Shown here: positions 4,322 through 32,517 of the stretch, one piece after another
Numbering within the stretch: position 1 is the first letter of the stretch
Layout of the letters: the number at the start of each line of letters is the position of its first letter
Assembly: GCA_017475525.1 (NCBI GenBank)
Contig: JAFVFH010000071.1
Coordinates: forward strand, 1-36,072
DNA from: Alphaproteobacteria bacterium
GTDB lineage: Bacteria; Pseudomonadota; Alphaproteobacteria; RF32; CAG-239
DNA length: 36,072 bases
Direction: 5' to 3'
Program-made: the position numbers and the translations under genes
The notes under the pieces: generated by a model
What the model was told of the DNA's origin: nothing
What the model saw: only the letters and a program-made list of their open reading frames with translations
Databases searched by the model: none

Positions 4322-4481
4322 ATAACCAAAATGGTTATGGTGTCCATAAGGCATTTTCTAAACATCACACTCCTTAAACGGGAGTTTTCGAAATAAGCAC
4401 ATTTTGTGACGAATAAGGAAGGCTGAGTTTAGACAGTTTTATGGCTCCCACTTTGGATTTTTTATCTAAAGTGATTTTTTT
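4322..4481 (+). promoter_or_regulatory. Structured RNA leader B (type 1) upstream of surface protein B
   Basis: Pairings visible by eye: P0 ATAACC (4322-4327)/GGTTAT (4333-4338); P1 CCATAA (4344-4349)/TTATGG (4439-4444); P2 TCTAAAC (4357-4363)/GTTTAGA (4427-4433); P3 ACTCC (4369-4373)/GGAGT (4381-4385); a small CACA/TGTG hairpin at 4398-4408. The core reads GGAG, CGAAATAAG, TGTG, then CGAATAAG, as in leaders C, D, E and G. GGGAG (4380-4384) can alternatively pair with CTCCC (4445-4449) at the foot of the terminator. Conserved core, conserved geometry and differing stem sequences across copies argue for a functional RNA. Confidence 0.85.
4449..4481 (+). terminator. Intrinsic terminator closing leader B
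   Basis: CACTTT (4449-4454) pairs with AAAGTG (4468-4473), extended by GAT/ATC, with a T run 4475-4481. It ends 26 bases before the gene B start codon. Confidence 0.85.
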
Positions 4482-4507: not shown

Positions 4508-5341
4508 ATGAAAAAAATATTTTTATTCTTTTTTCTTTTTACATTTTCGTTGCATGCTGAAATTATCGCCTCCGGCAATGATTGTGGCGATGATTGCCAC
4601 TGGGAAATTGATGCTCGGACAAAAACTTTAACCATTACAGGAAACGGCGCCATCAAGGATTATGAGCGCATTTACTCAGCAGACGCAATGGAGTACACAA
4701 CATCTGCACCATGGCGCGAATATGTTTACCAAGTTGAAAACGTGAATATCGGTGAAGGGATCACAAGTGTCGGTTATGATGCTTTTGAAGATATGTATTC
4801 AGTTAAAAATGTTTCTTTGCCAAGCACTTTGACGGATATTAAAGATCTGGCATTTCATACCTGCACCAACTTGCAGGAGATTACTCTACCTGAGAAGTTA
4901 AAAAACATAGGAGACGCCGCTTTTTCCGCTTCTGCCCTTCGATCTGTCACATTTCCAGAAAGTTTGGAAAGCATCGGACAGTATGCTTTTCCGATGCTAA
5001 AAACTGCCATTTTACAATCGGCAAAAGATTTAGCACTTGGCGCATTTGGCGATGATATTGCCGGTAGAAATGATACATGGAATCAATCACGTCTCGAAAA
5101 TTTATATTGTCAAACCGAGTTAATGGAAAAATGCAACAAGATTGCTTCAAGCCTTGGTATTGAAGCAACGGAATATAAAAAACTGCCGAATGGTCGTTAT
5201 GCTGTTAATGAAAAACAATTTCTCAGCTTAACCGACATTCAAAACGGTCGTATATATACACCTAAACGCATATACACCATCAAAGAAGCCGAAATGGTTT
5301 CCAAACCGACGGGTAATACTTTTATGATAAGATATAAATAA
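4508..5341 (+). CDS. BspA-like leucine-rich-repeat surface protein B with KRIYT tail
   Basis: A 277-residue exported protein. The signal peptide is MKKIFLFFFLFTFSLHA. A BspA-type N-module follows (SGNDCGDDCHWEID, then LTITGNGAIKDY), then about four leucine-rich repeats of the Treponema/BspA type (NVNIGEGITSVGYDAF, LPSTLTDIKDLAF, LPEKLKNIGDAAF, FPESLESIGQYAF). The C-terminus is the shared tail KRIYTIKEA...SKPTGNTFMIRYK. BspA-like repeats usually mediate binding to host or microbial surfaces; that role here is inference. ATG 4508 is chosen over GTG 4499 because GAGGAG (4493-4498) then has nine-base spacing and the signal peptide begins cleanly. It lies under leader B and ends two bases from the convergent TM1266-like gene. 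Confidence 0.9.
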   Translation: MKKIFLFFFLFTFSLHAEIIASGNDCGDDCHWEIDARTKTLTITGNGAIKDYERIYSADAMEYTTSAPWREYVYQVENVNIGEGITSVGYDAFEDMYSVKNVSLPSTLTDIKDLAFHTCTNLQEITLPEKLKNIGDAAFSASALRSVTFPESLESIGQYAFPMLKTAILQSAKDLALGAFGDDIAGRNDTWNQSRLENLYCQTELMEKCNKIASSLGIEATEYKKLPNGRYAVNEKQFLSLTDIQNGRIYTPKRIYTIKEAEMVSKPTGNTFMIRYK

Positions 5342-9717: not shown

Positions 9718-9879
9718 CGTTTGAAATCAAACGACGGTGTCTAAACAACACATTAGGTCATAGCTCCTTTTCGGAAGGAGTTGTCGATATAAGTGCATTT
9801 ATGTGTCGAATAAGGCAGACTGTGACCTAACAGTTGTTTAACTCCTCCATTTTGAAGTTTTTCAAGGTGGATTTTTTTT
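9718..9879 (+). promoter_or_regulatory. Structured RNA leader C (type 1) upstream of surface protein C
   Basis: P0 CGTTTGA (9718-9724)/TCAAACG (9727-9733); P1 TAAACAAC (9742-9749)/GTTGTTTA (9833-9840); P2 TTAGGTCA (9753-9760)/TGACCTAA (9823-9830); P3 CTCCTT (9764-9769)/AAGGAG (9775-9780). The conserved core has CGATATAAG, TGTG and CGAATAAG, and CTG...CAG flanks the 3' strand of P2. AGGAGTT (9776-9782) can instead pair with AACTCCT (9840-9846) next to the terminator. P1 and P2 sequences differ entirely from those of leader B yet pair perfectly, which is strong internal covariation. Confidence 0.85.
9847..9879 (+). terminator. Intrinsic terminator closing leader C
   Basis: CCATTTTGAA (9847-9856) pairs with TTCAAGGTGG (9861-9870) using two G-T wobbles, followed by eight T (9872-9879). 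Confidence 0.85.
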
Positions 9880-9988: not shown

Positions 9989-11350
9989 ATGACTAAAAAT
10001 AAACTCTTAACACCAATACTACTCGGCACGACCATCTTATCAACAGCCGCATTTGCCGACAATCTTATAACAGGAGAGAGCGGAAAATGCGGATCCACAG
10101 ACGCCCAGTGTCATTACGAAATCACAAACGGCGTGCTGACAATCACCGGAAATGCTTTTATATCATCAAAGCCTTGGAAAAATATCTCGGGATATAAAAC
10201 AGGTATTACCAGTGTTATTATAGAAAACGGCATAACAGGCATTACCAATAATGCGTTTGACGAAATAACAAGCTTGAAGAGTGTTGTGATTCCCAATAGT
10301 GTAAAAACTATTAACAATGCAGCATTTCATTATGCACCATCTTTGGAAAGTGTGACATTCGAAACAGGATCTCAATTAACAACACTGGCATCAAATGCAT
10401 TTTCTTATTCACCATCATTAAAAAGCATTGATCTTCCAGAATCCCTCACCGGAACTTTAGGTTCTTTTCAAGGGACAGGCTTAACAAGTATTGTTATCCC
10501 GTCGAAAGTAACACAGTTAGACAATTCATGTTTTAAAGATGCAACTTCACTAGAAAGTGTAACACTTCCGGATAGCTTAACATATATTCCGCAATATGGT
10601 TTTCAAAACACGAGTTTAAAAAGTATAGATATACCTAAAAATGTTACAACAATACAAGGGATGGCCTTCAAAGACATTAGCAGTTTAGAAAATATTACTT
10701 TTGCTTCGGATTCAAAACTTAGAGAAATTAATACCAATGCTTTTGAAAATGCAACGAGTTTGAAAAGTATTAATATTCCGGCAAGTGTTACACAACTGGG
10801 AGGATATCTATTTAAAGGCAGTGGATTGGAAAGTATCACATTTGACGAAGGTTCAAAACTGACAAGTATTCCTAATTATTTATTTTGGGATGCCTCAAAT
10901 TTGAAAAGTGTGATGTTGCCGGATTCTATTACCTCGGTTGGATGGGCAGCTTTTAGCGGAGTTCCTTCAACGGCAACAGTTTATTGTCAAGAAGGTGGGA
11001 ATAAGCATGGCGGAAAATCCTGTTCGGAGCTTTTTACAGCAAATTCCTCTTTTACCGGAACAATTCAATTGTATGCAAAAGATACAAACGGCAATATGAT
11101 TTTGTATGATAAAGATGAAACGACAGGCGAAATTACATCTAATGGAAAAAAATACGCTTCTATTGATCATTTAATTGCAGGAAGAGCAATGCATGAAATA
11201 CAACAAATTGAAAATAGTGACGGAAGTGTTTATCTATACGATGAAAACGGAAATCTCATCGGGATTAAAGGCAAGCGTATCTATACCGTTGAAGAGGCCG
11301 CACGACTTTCAAAACCGACAGGCAATACATTTAAGCTCAGATACAAATAA
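9989..11350 (+). CDS. BspA-like leucine-rich-repeat surface protein C with KRIYT tail
   Basis: A 453-residue exported protein, the largest of the set. The signal peptide is MTKNKLLTPILL... ending near AAFADN. The N-module has GKCGSTDAQCHYEI and LTITGNAF. About ten BspA-type leucine-rich repeats follow (VIPNSVKTINNAAF, LPESLTGTLGSF, LPDSLTYIPQYGF, LPDSITSVGWAAF and others). After a linker come DGSVYLYDENGNLIGIKG and the tail KRIYTVEEA...LSKPTGNTFKLRYK. ATG 9989 is used because AGGAG (9978-9982) is six bases upstream and a clean signal peptide results; the frame is open further up to 9962. Probably a surface adhesin or binding protein; the ligand is unknown. Confidence 0.9.
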   Translation: MTKNKLLTPILLGTTILSTAAFADNLITGESGKCGSTDAQCHYEITNGVLTITGNAFISSKPWKNISGYKTGITSVIIENGITGITNNAFDEITSLKSVVIPNSVKTINNAAFHYAPSLESVTFETGSQLTTLASNAFSYSPSLKSIDLPESLTGTLGSFQGTGLTSIVIPSKVTQLDNSCFKDATSLESVTLPDSLTYIPQYGFQNTSLKSIDIPKNVTTIQGMAFKDISSLENITFASDSKLREINTNAFENATSLKSINIPASVTQLGGYLFKGSGLESITFDEGSKLTSIPNYLFWDASNLKSVMLPDSITSVGWAAFSGVPSTATVYCQEGGNKHGGKSCSELFTANSSFTGTIQLYAKDTNGNMILYDKDETTGEITSNGKKYASIDHLIAGRAMHEIQQIENSDGSVYLYDENGNLIGIKGKRIYTVEEAARLSKPTGNTFKLRYK

Positions 11351-22186: not shown

Positions 22187-23050
22187 TTATTTATACCGAA
22201 GTTTAAAAATATTGCCCGTTGGCTTTGAAAGCCTTGAAGCCTCGTCGATGGTGTAAATGCGCTTGTTTTTGTAACCAATGACATTATTGTCTTTATAAAT
22301 AGACATGCTGCCATCGAAATCTTTTACATAATATGTGTTGCTATAAGTATCGCCTGAAATATCAGACCAATATGAAGTGTCATTTAAGTAAGACTTGCAC
22401 TCTTCCTCAGTTTCGCCATTAAAACATTTTTTCTTTTTTATCGAGACTAGATGTCCATAATTGTCATATTCATTATAGTAAACTGTATAGACAACATTAC
22501 CAGCAAGCGTACCATCTTCAAAAGTTTTGTTCCCATGTTTATCATATTCTGTCGTACGAGAAGAGCTTACCTCTTTTTTTGTTACCCATGTGCCATCTAT
22601 ATAAACATCTTCTGTTTTAAAATTCCATTGATTACTTAATCCGTGCCAAAATACATTAACCTCTCTTACATCTGGATTATTTGCATCATACGTATACACA
22701 TATTTATTTACGACTTCTTCTCTAGGGGGTGTTTCTCCCGGTACAATTTCATATGCTATAGCTTCATCTAGATTACCATCATTATCAATATCTTTATATT
22801 CCCAGCGTTTTGTGTCGGATATTATATTTCCTTCTTTGTCAAAATGAGACACAATTTCTCTACCACGCATATTTTGCACTTCTGTTTTATTACCATGTTC
22901 ATCGTATGTATAAGTATATTTTCTCATACCTTGGTCTTCTTCAATTAATCTATCTTGTTCATCGTACTTTCTTTGCACTGTTCTGGCTTGCGTTTCAAAA
23001 GCAAATATTAGTTCAATAACCGCAATAACGACAATATTGTTTTTTTTCAT
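22187..23050 (-). CDS. Exported YD-repeat-like surface protein E with KRIYT tail
   Basis: A 287-residue protein. The hydrophobic N-terminus (MKKNNIVVIAVIELIFAFE, then TQARTV) looks like a signal peptide. YD/RHS-like units follow: KYDEQDRLIEED, YTYDEHGNKTEVQN, EYDKHGNKTFEDG and EYDNYGHLVSIKK. The end has DGSMSIYKDNNVIGYKN and the shared tail KRIYTIDEA...LSKPTGNIFKLRYK. YD repeats in larger proteins form shells or bind surfaces; here there are only a few, so the function is open. AGGAGA precedes the ATG at 23050. The gene is under leader E, between the unknown operon and ileS. Confidence 0.88.
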   Translation of the reverse strand: MKKNNIVVIAVIELIFAFETQARTVQRKYDEQDRLIEEDQGMRKYTYTYDEHGNKTEVQNMRGREIVSHFDKEGNIISDTKRWEYKDIDNDGNLDEAIAYEIVPGETPPREEVVNKYVYTYDANNPDVREVNVFWHGLSNQWNFKTEDVYIDGTWVTKKEVSSSRTTEYDKHGNKTFEDGTLAGNVVYTVYYNEYDNYGHLVSIKKKKCFNGETEEECKSYLNDTSYWSDISGDTYSNTYYVKDFDGSMSIYKDNNVIGYKNKRIYTIDEASRLSKPTGNIFKLRYK

Positions 23051-23105: not shown

Positions 23106-23231
23106 AGGAGCCACAAAACTGTTACCACACAGTAGACTTATTCGACACAAACTGCCCTTATATCGTCATCTCCTCCAAACAAGGAGCTTGTGGTAAAAAT
23201 GTTTTGTGAACATCGCAACCATTATGGTTAC
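23072..23231 (-). promoter_or_regulatory. Structured RNA leader E (type 1) upstream of surface protein E
   Basis: Plus-strand coordinates: P0 23215-23220/23226-23231; P1 CACAAAAC (23112-23119)/GTTTTGTG (23201-23208); P2 TTACCACA (23122-23129)/TGTGGTAA (23189-23196); P3 near 23173-23186. On the minus strand the core shows GGAG, CGATATAAG, TTTGTG and CGAATAAG. The P3 3' strand (23170-23176) is a perfect seven-base complement of 23104-23110 at the terminator foot. The structure and spacing match leaders B, C, D and G. Confidence 0.85.
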
Positions 23232-26481: not shown

Positions 26482-26548
26482 AAAAAGATGCATCCCCTTA
26501 GGGGATAATAATGGAAGGTATGTAAGCGTTAAAATAAAGCATCTTTTT
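26482..26548. promoter_or_regulatory. Two-level inverted repeat upstream of ileS
   Basis: AAAAAGATGC (26482-26491) pairs with GCATCTTTTT (26539-26548), and ATCCCC (26492-26497) pairs with GGGGAT (26501-26506) inside. On the minus strand the outer arm ends in a T run about 70 bases before ileS, so it could be a terminator-like leader for ileS or the 3' end of something transcribed from either side. Function unknown. Confidence 0.45.
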
Positions 26549-26613: not shown

Positions 26614-26642
26614 TTGCAAAGACAAGAAAACTTTGGCATAAT
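26614..26642 (+). promoter_or_regulatory. Promoter of leader D
   Basis: TTGCAA (26614-26619), 17 bases, CATAAT (26637-26642), with TGG immediately before the -10. Confidence 0.65.
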
Positions 26643-26650
26643 AAAAACAT

Positions 26651-26812
26651 GATGATATTCATCTCGGCGTTCACAAAACGTCTGCAATCATATCGCTCCT
26701 CTAAGGGGAGTTTTCGAGATAAGCACATTTTTTTGTGGCGAATAAGAATGACTGAATGATTGCAGTTTTTGTGGCTCCCCGTTTTGAATATGATTTCAAA
26801 ACGGAATTTTTT
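26651..26812 (+). promoter_or_regulatory. Structured RNA leader D (type 1) upstream of pilin-like protein
   Basis: P0 GATGA (26651-26655)/TCATC (26659-26663); P1 CACAAAA (26672-26678)/TTTTGTG (26767-26773); P2 TGCAATCAT (26683-26691)/ATGATTGCA (26756-26764); P3 CTCCTC (26696-26701)/GGGGAG (26705-26710). The core CGAGATAAG, TGTG, CGAATAAG and the CTG...CAG flanks of P2 are conserved. GGGGAG (26705-26710) also matches CTCCCC (26775-26780) at the terminator foot. Confidence 0.85.
26779..26812 (+). terminator. Intrinsic terminator closing leader D
   Basis: CCGTTTTGAA (26779-26788) pairs perfectly with TTCAAAACGG (26795-26804), followed by AA and six T. Confidence 0.9.
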
Positions 26813-26836
26813 ATTAACAATATTCGGAGATGCATG

Positions 26837-27463
26837 ATGAAAATAAAACAAACCGGTCGTTCAATGGTTGAGATGTTAGGCGTTTTGGCTGTGATTGGTG
26901 TTTTATCTGCCGGCGCATTAGCAGGATACTCAAAAGCAATGCTACAATATAAATTAAATATCCAATCAGAACAAATCAACACAATTATGGATGGCATTTT
27001 ATTGTATGCAAACAAAATCAGCGAAGAAAAAGGAAGTTATTTAAGCGGTCAATCGCTGGTTCCTTTTTTGAAAGCAATCAATGCAGTGGATGAAAAAATG
27101 TATATTAAAGGGGATAGTTACAATTTGAGAGATATTTTTGAACATAATATTGCTATTGTCGTATATAAGGCTTACTATGGTGTTTATGTCGAGTTTAAGG
27201 TATATTTACGAGCAACGGATATCAAGCCCTGCATCAATTTATATCAAATTGCTAGCCTTAGAAATGCAGATTTATGGCGTGTTAAAATACAGCAATATAA
27301 TACAGGGACAAGCAGTACTGAAAGCGGAAGCGTTCTGAGTGATTTACATTGTTATAATGGTGCCAAATGCTTTAAGAATTTAACTTTGAGCGATATTGAA
27401 GGTTATTGCGAAGACGGACTTAAAGCTGAAGTAAATATGTTTTATTTCCAATATGAACTATAA
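26837..27463 (+). CDS. Type IV prepilin-like protein D
   Basis: A 208-residue protein with a prepilin-type N-terminus: a short basic leader MKIKQTG, then RSMVEMLGVLAVIGVLSAGA. If cleaved after the Gly, Glu falls at position 5, as in type IV pilins and type II secretion pseudopilins. The C-terminal domain is not recognisable; it has cysteines (IKPCIN, DLHCYNGAKCF, GYCEDG) that could form disulphides. It lacks the KRIYT tail. ATG 26837 is preferred to 26834, since CGGAGA (26825-26830) then has six-base spacing; the frame open to 26756 runs back into leader D and is not credible. Expression is probably controlled by leader D. Confidence 0.85.
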   Translation: MKIKQTGRSMVEMLGVLAVIGVLSAGALAGYSKAMLQYKLNIQSEQINTIMDGILLYANKISEEKGSYLSGQSLVPFLKAINAVDEKMYIKGDSYNLRDIFEHNIAIVVYKAYYGVYVEFKVYLRATDIKPCINLYQIASLRNADLWRVKIQQYNTGTSSTESGSVLSDLHCYNGAKCFKNLTLSDIEGYCEDGLKAEVNMFYFQYEL

Positions 27464-28119: not shown

Positions 28120-29034
28120 CTAACGATATCTGATTCTAAAGCTGTTTCCCTCCTTTTTTGAAATCGCTTCCGCTTCTTCAATGGTGAAAATGCGCTTGCC
28201 TTTATAGGTTTTAAGCTTCCCATTGCGATAAACCGCGGCTGCCCCGTCGGCACCATATTGATACGTGTCAACGCTTCCGTCTGCATTGTTGATGTTTAAT
28301 ACTGCTTTTTCTTTAATGGGGTAATATACGCCTTTTTCCCAAAATTTGGCCTGATTGAAATATTCTTCGCACTTTGCCCTGACGGCATCCGAACAATAAA
28401 TATTATCCACATCACTCAATGCTCTCAGTTCCAAGCCATAAAAATATTCGACTCCCTGCCTATCATCATAATTGTTGCCATCAACTGTAAAAATACTATC
28501 ATTTAAAACGACACTGTTAATGCCGGACAAATTAAAAGCATTTGCACTAAAAACTTTGACAGATTGAGGAATATTAATTTCTGTTAAATTCGGCAGATCG
28601 TTAAATGCACCTGCTCCGATGAATTCCAATTGCGAATTTTCGGCAAAAGTGACACTTTTTAAAGTACTCATACTTTGCACAGCGCCTTGCCCGATTCTCT
28701 CAACCGATGTCGGTATATTGATGCCACTTAAGTTTGTTTGAAAAAAAGCATAATCACCAATGGATTTAATTCCTTCTTCAATTTCAACACTTGTAACATT
28801 ATTTCCCCACGGGTGCTCAATATGATTTTTTATTTGTCCCCACGATGGTGAATAATCCGCCATATTTCCATCGCCGGTGATGGTCAGTTTTGTGCCGTCA
28901 AGGCGCGCTGTGCAATTATCCGCATCCGTTTTGCCGCAATCCCAACAGTTGTTGTTTAAATCATCACCGCAAGTATTAGCGGCATTGGCATTAAAACATA
29001 AAATCAAACTGAAAGCTAAAATCCATTTTTTCAT
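28120..29034 (-). CDS. BspA-like leucine-rich-repeat surface protein F with KRIYT-type tail
   Basis: A 304-residue exported protein. The signal peptide is MKKWILAFSLILCFNANA. The N-module NNCWDCGKTDADNCTARLDG then LTITGDGNMADY is nearly the same as in protein G. About five BspA-type repeats follow (EEGIKSIGDYAF, IPTSVERIGQGAV, IPQSVKVFSANAF). The C-terminus is a divergent form of the tail: KRIFTIEEA...ISKKEGNSFRIRYR, preceded by NADGSVDTYQYGADG. ATG 29034 has GGAG six bases upstream; the frame open to 29103 runs into the leader. Controlled by leader F. A surface-binding role is inferred from the repeat type. Confidence 0.9.
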   Translation of the reverse strand: MKKWILAFSLILCFNANAANTCGDDLNNNCWDCGKTDADNCTARLDGTKLTITGDGNMADYSPSWGQIKNHIEHPWGNNVTSVEIEEGIKSIGDYAFFQTNLSGINIPTSVERIGQGAVQSMSTLKSVTFAENSQLEFIGAGAFNDLPNLTEINIPQSVKVFSANAFNLSGINSVVLNDSIFTVDGNNYDDRQGVEYFYGLELRALSDVDNIYCSDAVRAKCEEYFNQAKFWEKGVYYPIKEKAVLNINNADGSVDTYQYGADGAAAVYRNGKLKTYKGKRIFTIEEAEAISKKEGNSFRIRYR

Positions 29035-29087: not shown

Positions 29088-29303
29088 CAGGGGAGTTGAA
29101 CAATCATGTTGAGAGAAATGACTCCGATAGCCTTTAGGAAAAACCCTGTACATACGCCACCGGCTCCCCACCTATGCGGGGAATTTAAATACCAAAAAAG
29201 GCACCCAAAACGGATACCATTTCAGGTATCTCTCAACATAGAGCCGTTCAAAGCCCCGAACCTCTCGGTTCTTAAATAGAGAAAGACAAAACTATCTCTA
29301 TCA
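29065..29303 (-). promoter_or_regulatory. Structured RNA leader F (type 2) upstream of surface protein F
   Basis: Plus-strand coordinates: P1 TTGAAC (29096-29101)/GTTCAA (29246-29251); P2 TGTTGAGAGA (29107-29116)/TCTCTCAACA (29229-29238); P3 TCCCC (29165-29169)/GGGGA (29178-29182); extra hairpins at 29258-29271 and 29277-29300. The P3 strand CTCCCC (29164-29169) also complements GGGGAG (29090-29095) near the terminator. The core matches leader A: ATGT.CA, TTTTT, AAAG, then GAGTCATTTC, and the stem CGGTGGC/GCTATCG covaries with TGATGGT/ACCATTA of leader A. On the minus strand TTGACA (29335-29340) with a weak TACGCT 17 bases on may be the promoter. Confidence 0.75.
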
Positions 29304-31475: not shown

Positions 31476-32327
31476 TTATTTGTATCTTAACTTAAATGTG
31501 TTGCCTGACGGCTTGCTCAGTTTTTCTGCTTCTTTAACGGTATAAATGCGCTTTTTGATGTTATTTTGTGTGCCGATATCGGAAAAACGGGCATAAAATT
31601 TACCGTTTGCAAAATATTCATCGCCGTATTTTTCGTAAGTTTGAAGATGAATGTTTTCAATAGGGCATTCAAGAGAAACACCGTTTTCCTTTCCGCAATA
31701 TTCACGGGCTGTCTTAAAATAGTTTTCACATTTTTGATGATTTTTTTCAGAGCAATATATGGTCATACCGCTTTTAAAAGTCATATAATGAAGGCCTGTT
31801 CCGTTGTCATTAAATAAAGAATCGGGCAATACTAGTGTTTGAAGCGAAGATGCTAAAAAATTATTGTAATTAAGCTTAACAATATCTTCCGGAAGTATGA
31901 GGGATTGTAACTTCGGCGTTATTTGAAAACTAGCGCCTGCAATATACACTTGGCCGCCGCTTTCAAACCAAACATTTGTGAGCTCGGGCATATTTTGAAA
32001 AGCACCGTCTTGTAAATAAGAAACAGATTTAGGCACATTAATTTGCTTGATTTGAGTGCCCCGAAAAGCAAGCGTTCCGACGGATGTGATGCCTTCGATT
32101 TCAAGTTCGTTGATATCTGTGCCCCATGGCAATGTCACATTGCCATAACTTGCCATATCGCCTGAGCCGGTAATTGTGAGTTTTGTGCCATCTTTGCGCG
32201 CCGTGCAAAGATCATTTGCCGTTTTGCCGCAATCCCAACAATTTTCTTCGTTTTCAGCGCAGTCATTTGAAGCAAAAGCCGGAAGCGAAAAGAGTAAGGC
32301 GCTTATAATCATTAAAGTGTTTTTCAT
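31476..32327 (-). CDS. BspA-like leucine-rich-repeat surface protein G with KRIYT tail
   Basis: A 283-residue exported protein. The signal peptide is MKNTLMIISALLFSLPAFA. The N-module NCWDCGKTANDLCTARKDG then LTITGSGDMASYG closely matches protein F, so the two are paralogues. A few BspA-type repeats follow (IEGITSVGTLAF, VPKSVSYLQDGAF, LPEDIVKLNYNNF). The tail is KRIYTVKEA...LSKPSGNTFKLRYK. AGGAG lies six bases before ATG 32327; the frame extends to 32384 into the leader terminator and is discounted. Controlled by leader G. Confidence 0.9.
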   Translation of the reverse strand: MKNTLMIISALLFSLPAFASNDCAENEENCWDCGKTANDLCTARKDGTKLTITGSGDMASYGNVTLPWGTDINELEIEGITSVGTLAFRGTQIKQINVPKSVSYLQDGAFQNMPELTNVWFESGGQVYIAGASFQITPKLQSLILPEDIVKLNYNNFLASSLQTLVLPDSLFNDNGTGLHYMTFKSGMTIYCSEKNHQKCENYFKTAREYCGKENGVSLECPIENIHLQTYEKYGDEYFANGKFYARFSDIGTQNNIKKRIYTVKEAEKLSKPSGNTFKLRYK

Positions 32328-32389: not shown

Positions 32390-32517
32390 AGGAGCCAATA
32401 AACTGTAAGAGAACAGATAGATTTATTCGTCACAAATGCGCTTATTTCATCTACTCCCCCTAAAGGGAGACCTTTTCTCTTAAGTGTTTATTGAACACCA
32501 TAACCATTTTGGTTATA
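32359..32517 (-). promoter_or_regulatory. Structured RNA leader G (type 1) upstream of surface protein G
   Basis: Plus-strand coordinates: P0 TAACC (32501-32505)/GGTTA (32511-32515); P1 CAATAAAC (32396-32403)/GTTTATTG (32486-32493); P2 TAAGAGAA (32406-32413)/TTCTCTTA (32475-32482); P3 TCCCCC/GGGAGA near 32455-32470. The minus-strand core has GGAG, TGAAATAAG, TTTGTG and CGAATAAA. The GGGGAG strand of P3 can pair, with one wobble, with CTCCTC at the terminator foot. Fits the type 1 pattern. Confidence 0.85.

Follow-up and report, generated by a model that had tools for sequence, protein, structure and literature searches.

The prepilin-like gene that closes positions 26614-27463 of the window (the whole stretch of 36,072 nucleotides analysed here) stands behind leader D, a full copy of a conserved, covarying RNA structure that we call the type 1 leader. 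On balance we favour reading leader D as a cis-acting, riboswitch-like transcription attenuator and as one member of a candidate orphan class with about 85 copies in its genome. The best reading of the sequences, taken together, is a new class of terminator-controlled leader RNA, riboswitch-like and of unusual copy number; to our knowledge, 85 copies of one cis-regulatory RNA in 1.4 Mb is far above what is usual for a riboswitch class.

Leader D and its fold

The span runs from the first base of a -35 box to the stop codon of the prepilin-like gene, and its features are as follows.

26614-26619, + strand: -35 box TTGCAA, by sequence reading
26637-26642, + strand: -10 box CATAAT, by sequence reading, after a 17-base spacer
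26651-26663, + strand: 5' hairpin P0, GATGA-TAT-TCATC, from sequence
26666-26779, + strand: leader D, a full type 1 structured RNA, from R1 match and covariation
26671-26679 with 26765-26774, + strand: helix P1, covarying over 85 and 90 copies
26685-26691 with 26756-26762, + strand: helix P2, CAATCAT with ATGATTG, all seven pairs changing on both sides
26696-26710, + strand: hairpin P3, CTCC (26696-26699) with GGAG (26707-26710), from alignment and covariation
26711-26750, + strand: arm P4, with covarying stems
26716-26723 and 26738-26745, + strand: internal loop (8x8) in arm P4, GAGATAAG / GCGAATAA, with invariant loop bases
26724-26737, + strand: hairpin P5, with a covarying stem
26705-26710 with 26775-26780, + strand: long-range alternative pairing, GGGGAG with CTCCCC, overlapping the terminator base and covarying beyond the core GGAG/CUCC in 157 copies
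26779-26815, + strand: intrinsic terminator, CCGTTTTGAA / TTCAAAACGG and a T tract, from sequence
26825-26829, + strand: ribosome-binding site CGGAG, before the ATG at 26837, from sequence
26837-27463, + strand: prepilin-like gene, 208 amino acids, without the KRIYT tail, from sequence

An open reading frame called from 26756 was rejected as spurious, its start falling within leader D. The promoter at 26614-26642 (+) is of the sigma70 type. Upstream of the prepilin-like gene lies a divergent class I tRNA synthetase gene, which we take to be ileS, and downstream a convergent ferritin-like gene, so that the leader's promoter is the only evident source of transcript; to judge from the sequence, there is no room for a second promoter between the terminator and the start codon. 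Between leader D and the divergent synthetase gene, at 26484-26547, a long inverted repeat (AAAAAGATGC ... GCATCTTTTT) could be a minus-strand leader of the latter gene.

The fold was derived from copies found by pattern search of the same genome, together with two more from the window. R1 was built from five well-aligned copies; in a nine-copy MAFFT alignment P2 and P3 had been misregistered. This model finds five type 1 copies in the window and 84 full-length copies in the genome's own assembly (1.44 Mb, 85% complete), or 85 distinct ones once the fetched regions were scanned. It matches leader D, which is not among the five copies it was built from, at 26666-26779 over positions 1-112 of 112 (72.1 bits, E ~1e-15), just as expected from the earlier note's description of a full type 1 copy.

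P1 and P2 are two long helices that close a three-way junction holding P3 and the P4 arm. In alignments made to the model, a procedure that favours the structure, 97.4% of the helix cells of the 85 own-genome copies are paired, against 66.6% after shuffling and no more than 45.5% when the partners are slid; two-sided changes occur in 24 of 29 helix pairs. For a set of 90 copies, of which nearly all come from 17 other genomes, the corresponding values are 96.5%, 63.6% (shuffled) and 28 of 29. P1, P2 and the terminator are also seen in most copies by single-sequence folding, which takes no help from the model. P2, a helix of seven pairs, has 76 different 5' strands in the 85 copies. Hardly any variation is seen in the internal loop GANAUAAG / CGAAUAA, the CUG and CAG beside P2, GGAG and CUCC. 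Two back-to-back UAA/GAN motifs were considered for the internal loop; a literature search on them found no paper.

Conservation is bounded upstream by the -35 box, which has a counterpart at the same position in 86% of the 85 copies, and downstream by the end of the terminator; P0-like stems of at least six pairs occur in the 26 bases upstream of nearly all copies. Such a complete promoter-to-terminator unit of about 150 bases could be the gene of a small RNA ending at the terminator, with the downstream gene reached by leakage or from another promoter. We hold this to be very improbable, since nearly every copy has a different P1 and P2, which leaves no common antisense sequence there, and since the start codon follows the T tract by a median of 27 bases, usually too short for a further promoter, with the divergent neighbour upstream in the case of leader D.

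The number of copies in genomes of the genus is high and uneven (85, 64, 32 and 0) and contig ends often lie beside copies, as might be the case for a mobile repeat or recombination cassette landing before genes by chance. This can hardly be credited: the copies are diverged (median identity 64%, with three pairs above 90%), nearly all of them are complete, with the promoter at one end and the terminator at the other, and the exact pattern is absent from viral contigs. Nor is the set of recent near-identical and truncated copies of a MITE-like element seen, the one short fragment lying at a contig edge. The adjoining of leaders and contig ends was observed in G000 and G125 (e.g., G000 C69, C44, C62, C16 and C12), and copy numbers are therefore probably underestimates.

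None of the 4227 models of Rfam 15, GEMM included, matches the type 1 leader at gathering or permissive scores, and literature searches found no description of it. GEMM riboswitches (c-di-GMP-I/cGAMP) are likewise terminator-linked leaders, present more than once in a genome and preceding surface genes, those of pili among them (PMC8683041), but the type 1 leader differs from them in fold, in having no Rfam match and in its 85 copies in 1.4 Mb; the model search does not support membership of GEMM. With the orphan riboswitch candidates of comparative genomics (PMC2864571, PMC11109978) it shares a covarying leader, an expression platform and no known ligand, although it is absent from Rfam 15; the texts of these two papers make no mention of HTH, pilin or alphaproteobacterial targets.

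A choice of pairings at the terminator

Of 185 copies, 181 have a terminator-like hairpin and T tract after the 3' CUCC, mostly with the stem starting from the very next base. Over 157 copies the base before GGAG and the base after this 3' CUCC form a Watson-Crick pair in 84.7%, against 39.3% after shuffling (G-C 80, A-T 37, T-A 10, C-G 6), whereas the same base shows no covariation with the base after the 5' CUCC (30.9% against 28.6% shuffled). Covariation with the 3' but not the 5' flank means that GGAG and one or two further bases are kept complementary to the terminator base. The four core bases GGAG are at the same time complementary to the 5' strand of P3, so that there are two states which exclude each other, one with P3 and the whole terminator, the other with the long-range pairing and a weakened terminator. 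As far as sequence goes, then, an expression platform (a terminator and an alternative pairing exclusive with it) is present, and the two exclusive pairings, our strongest argument for a switch, point to one. The alternative pairing could instead be a constitutive pseudoknot, with no switch.

Another reading is that the leader is a constitutive element of the 5' untranslated region, which stabilises the mRNA or enables polymerase to read through the terminator with no signal needed, as the put RNA of phage HK022 does. The conserved structure, and the same promoter-leader-terminator module before many genes, would suit such an element; yet retention of the terminator in 181 of 185 copies, together with that of a second pairing complementary to its base, is hard to explain without regulation, and we consider the idea improbable.

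If the leader is a transcription attenuator, as we prefer to read it, transcription would start just 5' of the small hairpin P0 and the sensor domain would fold next, with P1 and P2 closing the three-way junction that holds P3 and the arm formed by P4, the internal loop and P5. Pairing of the GGAG of P3 with the 5' CUCC of that hairpin would leave the terminator whole, while its pairing with the 3' CUCC, which runs into the terminator base, would weaken it. The balance between the two would be shifted by a common signal that the conserved junction and internal loop detect, and small HTH regulators, prepilins and the adhesin-like proteins with tails would then change together. The sequences themselves show the conserved fold, the alternative pairing, the promoter, the terminator and which genes lie behind the leader; we infer the switching itself, termination by default with signal-dependent read-through (or the reverse), a single shared ligand or protein, and the switching of these genes in concert. 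In this genome, much of the cell surface may in this way be under one signal.

Genes behind the leader

Besides leader D, R1 places four type 1 leaders in the window, each before a tail gene.

4339-4449, + strand: leader B, before the LRR/KRIYT-tail gene 4508-5341
9736-9846, + strand: leader C, before the LRR/KRIYT-tail gene 9989-11350
23106-23214, - strand: type 1 leader, before the tail gene 22187-23050
32390-32499, - strand: type 1 leader, before the tail gene 31476-32327

Targets in the own assembly were assigned by coordinates and inspection. The genome holds 116 KRIYT-tail genes and 23 prepilin-like genes, and a type 1 leader lies upstream of 56 of the former and nine of the latter that are intact; this enrichment of prepilins (9/23) has a hypergeometric P of ~1e-6, the copies being non-independent through duplication. 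The other 20 leaders comprise seven before secreted relatives that a contig end or a frameshift interrupts, one before a broken prepilin, six before HTH genes, two before unknown, apparently cytosolic genes, one before a gene broken by a repeat, and three at contig ends. Secreted or surface-type genes thus follow 73 of the 82 assignable leaders (56 tail genes, the seven cut or frameshifted relatives and 10 prepilins), and other species of the genus also have prepilins preceded by the leader, which gives substance, within the genus, to the proposal in the earlier note of a regulon of surface appendages and adhesins.

When leaders are compared outside P1 and P2, prepilin leaders have a nearest neighbour of their own kind in 10% of cases, against 12% by chance, and their nearest neighbours are mostly tail-gene leaders; leader D itself is closest to leader B (4339-4449). 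Prepilin and tail leaders are thus interleaved, so that one leader population serves both surface families. HTH leaders do cluster (67% with a nearest neighbour of the same kind, against 6% by chance). The type 1 leader links pilins, adhesin-like LRR proteins and HTH regulators, and its interchange between gene families means that a regulon can grow by gaining a control module. If it senses a metabolite, a second messenger or a host cue, surface control in these poorly known gut alphaproteobacteria would be explained, and we would have a new class of RNA sensor whose ligand can be tested.

Among 153 genomes of the order, 109 carry the leader, those listed all belonging to one family, and it is present in a few other alphaproteobacterial families; among 398 genomes sampled from the phylum it was found in none but its own. 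Named leader-bearing records are uncultured alphaproteobacteria, at least one of them explicitly from goat rumen. Class-level matches in G430 and G037 are weak (E ~1e-4 to 1e-3) and count as unproven, and pattern-scan matches in Methylomonas, Burkholderiaceae and Prevotellaceae, which R2 does not confirm, were rejected as chance.

Outside the genus the targets are of another sort. In the 90-copy survey, with targets assigned by reading the sequences and Pfam applied to four HTH proteins, 75 copies were assignable; about 67 of these stand before small XRE-like HTH genes of ~70-115 residues, six before a secreted cysteine-rich family (in one genus) and two before a prepilin (in another family). 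The HTH products are presumably cytosolic, and so the leader does not in itself mark surface genes; it has spread to such genes within this genus. The earlier note's wider claim, that the RNA is tied to surface display in general, accordingly stands for this genome (73/82) and falls in other genera (~67/75 before HTH genes): a leader found mostly before genes unrelated to the surface, which the note had named as the outcome speaking against it, is what we see outside the genus and not within the own genome. With such targets elsewhere, a single signal for surface function is not obvious.

The same targets bring in the main rival, namely that a protein rather than a small molecule reads the leader, with one of the small XRE-like HTH proteins encoded behind it in most genera, or another RNA-binding protein, binding the conserved loop and controlling termination, that of its own gene included. 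It draws on the ~67 of 75 copies in other genera, on the six HTH leaders here and on the HTH fold, predicted with confidence in one structure model. The close structural matches of this model, however, are DNA-binding HTH_3 regulators such as C.BclI, HipB and SinR, and the HTH proteins may simply be targets; we think this reading rather unlikely.

In several genera, a single HTH gene is preceded by two complete tandem leaders with about 100-150 bases between them (L114, L263, L267, L308, L309 and L159). The secreted cysteine-rich paralogues (CVATQDCATLGYTETSC...) behind the leader in one genus (L300, L301, L302, L304, L306 and L307) form another lineage-specific expansion.

Tail proteins, a second leader and the prepilin-like protein

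The tail KRIYTVEEAxxxSKxTGNTFKLRYK forms the C-terminus of 116 otherwise diverse proteins of secreted type in this genome, and looks, from its sequence, like a sorting or anchoring signal. Its copies in the window lie at 1540-1620, 5261-5338, 11267-11347, 22190-22270, 28123-28203 and 31479-31559. Pfam LRR_5 is present in the tail proteins of leaders B and C, as it is in BspA-type LRR surface proteins, from which they differ in the KRIYT...LRYK tail shared over 116 genes.

Most of the tested tail genes without a type 1 leader carry a second structured RNA, type 2, with a core of ~185 bases and closing helices that covary (two-sided changes in 20 of 49 pairs, 14 sequences). R3, the model of this type, matches 32 of 40 tested tail-gene upstream regions, three prepilins and two further tail genes of the window.

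412-588, + strand: type 2 leader (R3), before the tail gene 643-1623
29088-29258, - strand: type 2 leader (R3), before the tail gene 28120-29034

At least 54 copies are found in the own genome, and the leader is present in 23 of 37 genomes searched; type 2 has no match in Rfam. It likewise has a GGGGAG strand and a CUCC beside the terminator. It is possible, if somewhat doubtful, that two distinct orphan RNA sensors with the same kind of platform (GGAG-bearing strand, 3' CUCC and terminator) jointly govern through one signal most of the surface repertoire of these bacteria; in one 1.4 Mb genome this would take in no fewer than 90 of the 116 tail genes and 12 of the 23 prepilin-like ones.

The product of the gene behind leader D begins MKIKQTG|RSMVEMLGVLAVIGVLSAGALAGY and has 208 residues. 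In accordance with the earlier note, it is prepilin-like and lacks the KRIYT...LRYK tail. As in type IV prepilins and pseudopilins, a G ahead of the cleavage site and an E at +5 are followed by a hydrophobic stretch, a signal kept in all nine leader-bearing members; unlike them, the protein has R instead of F at +1, and it scores below the curated cut-offs of Pfam N_methyl (14.9 bits against 21.2) and TIGR02532 (13.9 against 16.3). The predicted structure, with a long N-terminal helix and a small sheet, is of low confidence (pLDDT 62), and Foldseek gave it no PDB match, only low-score unrelated ones. The genome has one prepilin peptidase (PF01478) and one protein with two T2SSF/PilC-type domains (PF00482).

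A repeated coding insert (MNKNDKEAVYVREGATP...LDDLTRCAG) is found inside or before prepilin reading frames at L117, L084 and L230 (upstream part), with similar pieces in L087 and L110; it appears to resemble the palindromic coding repeats known from Rickettsia.
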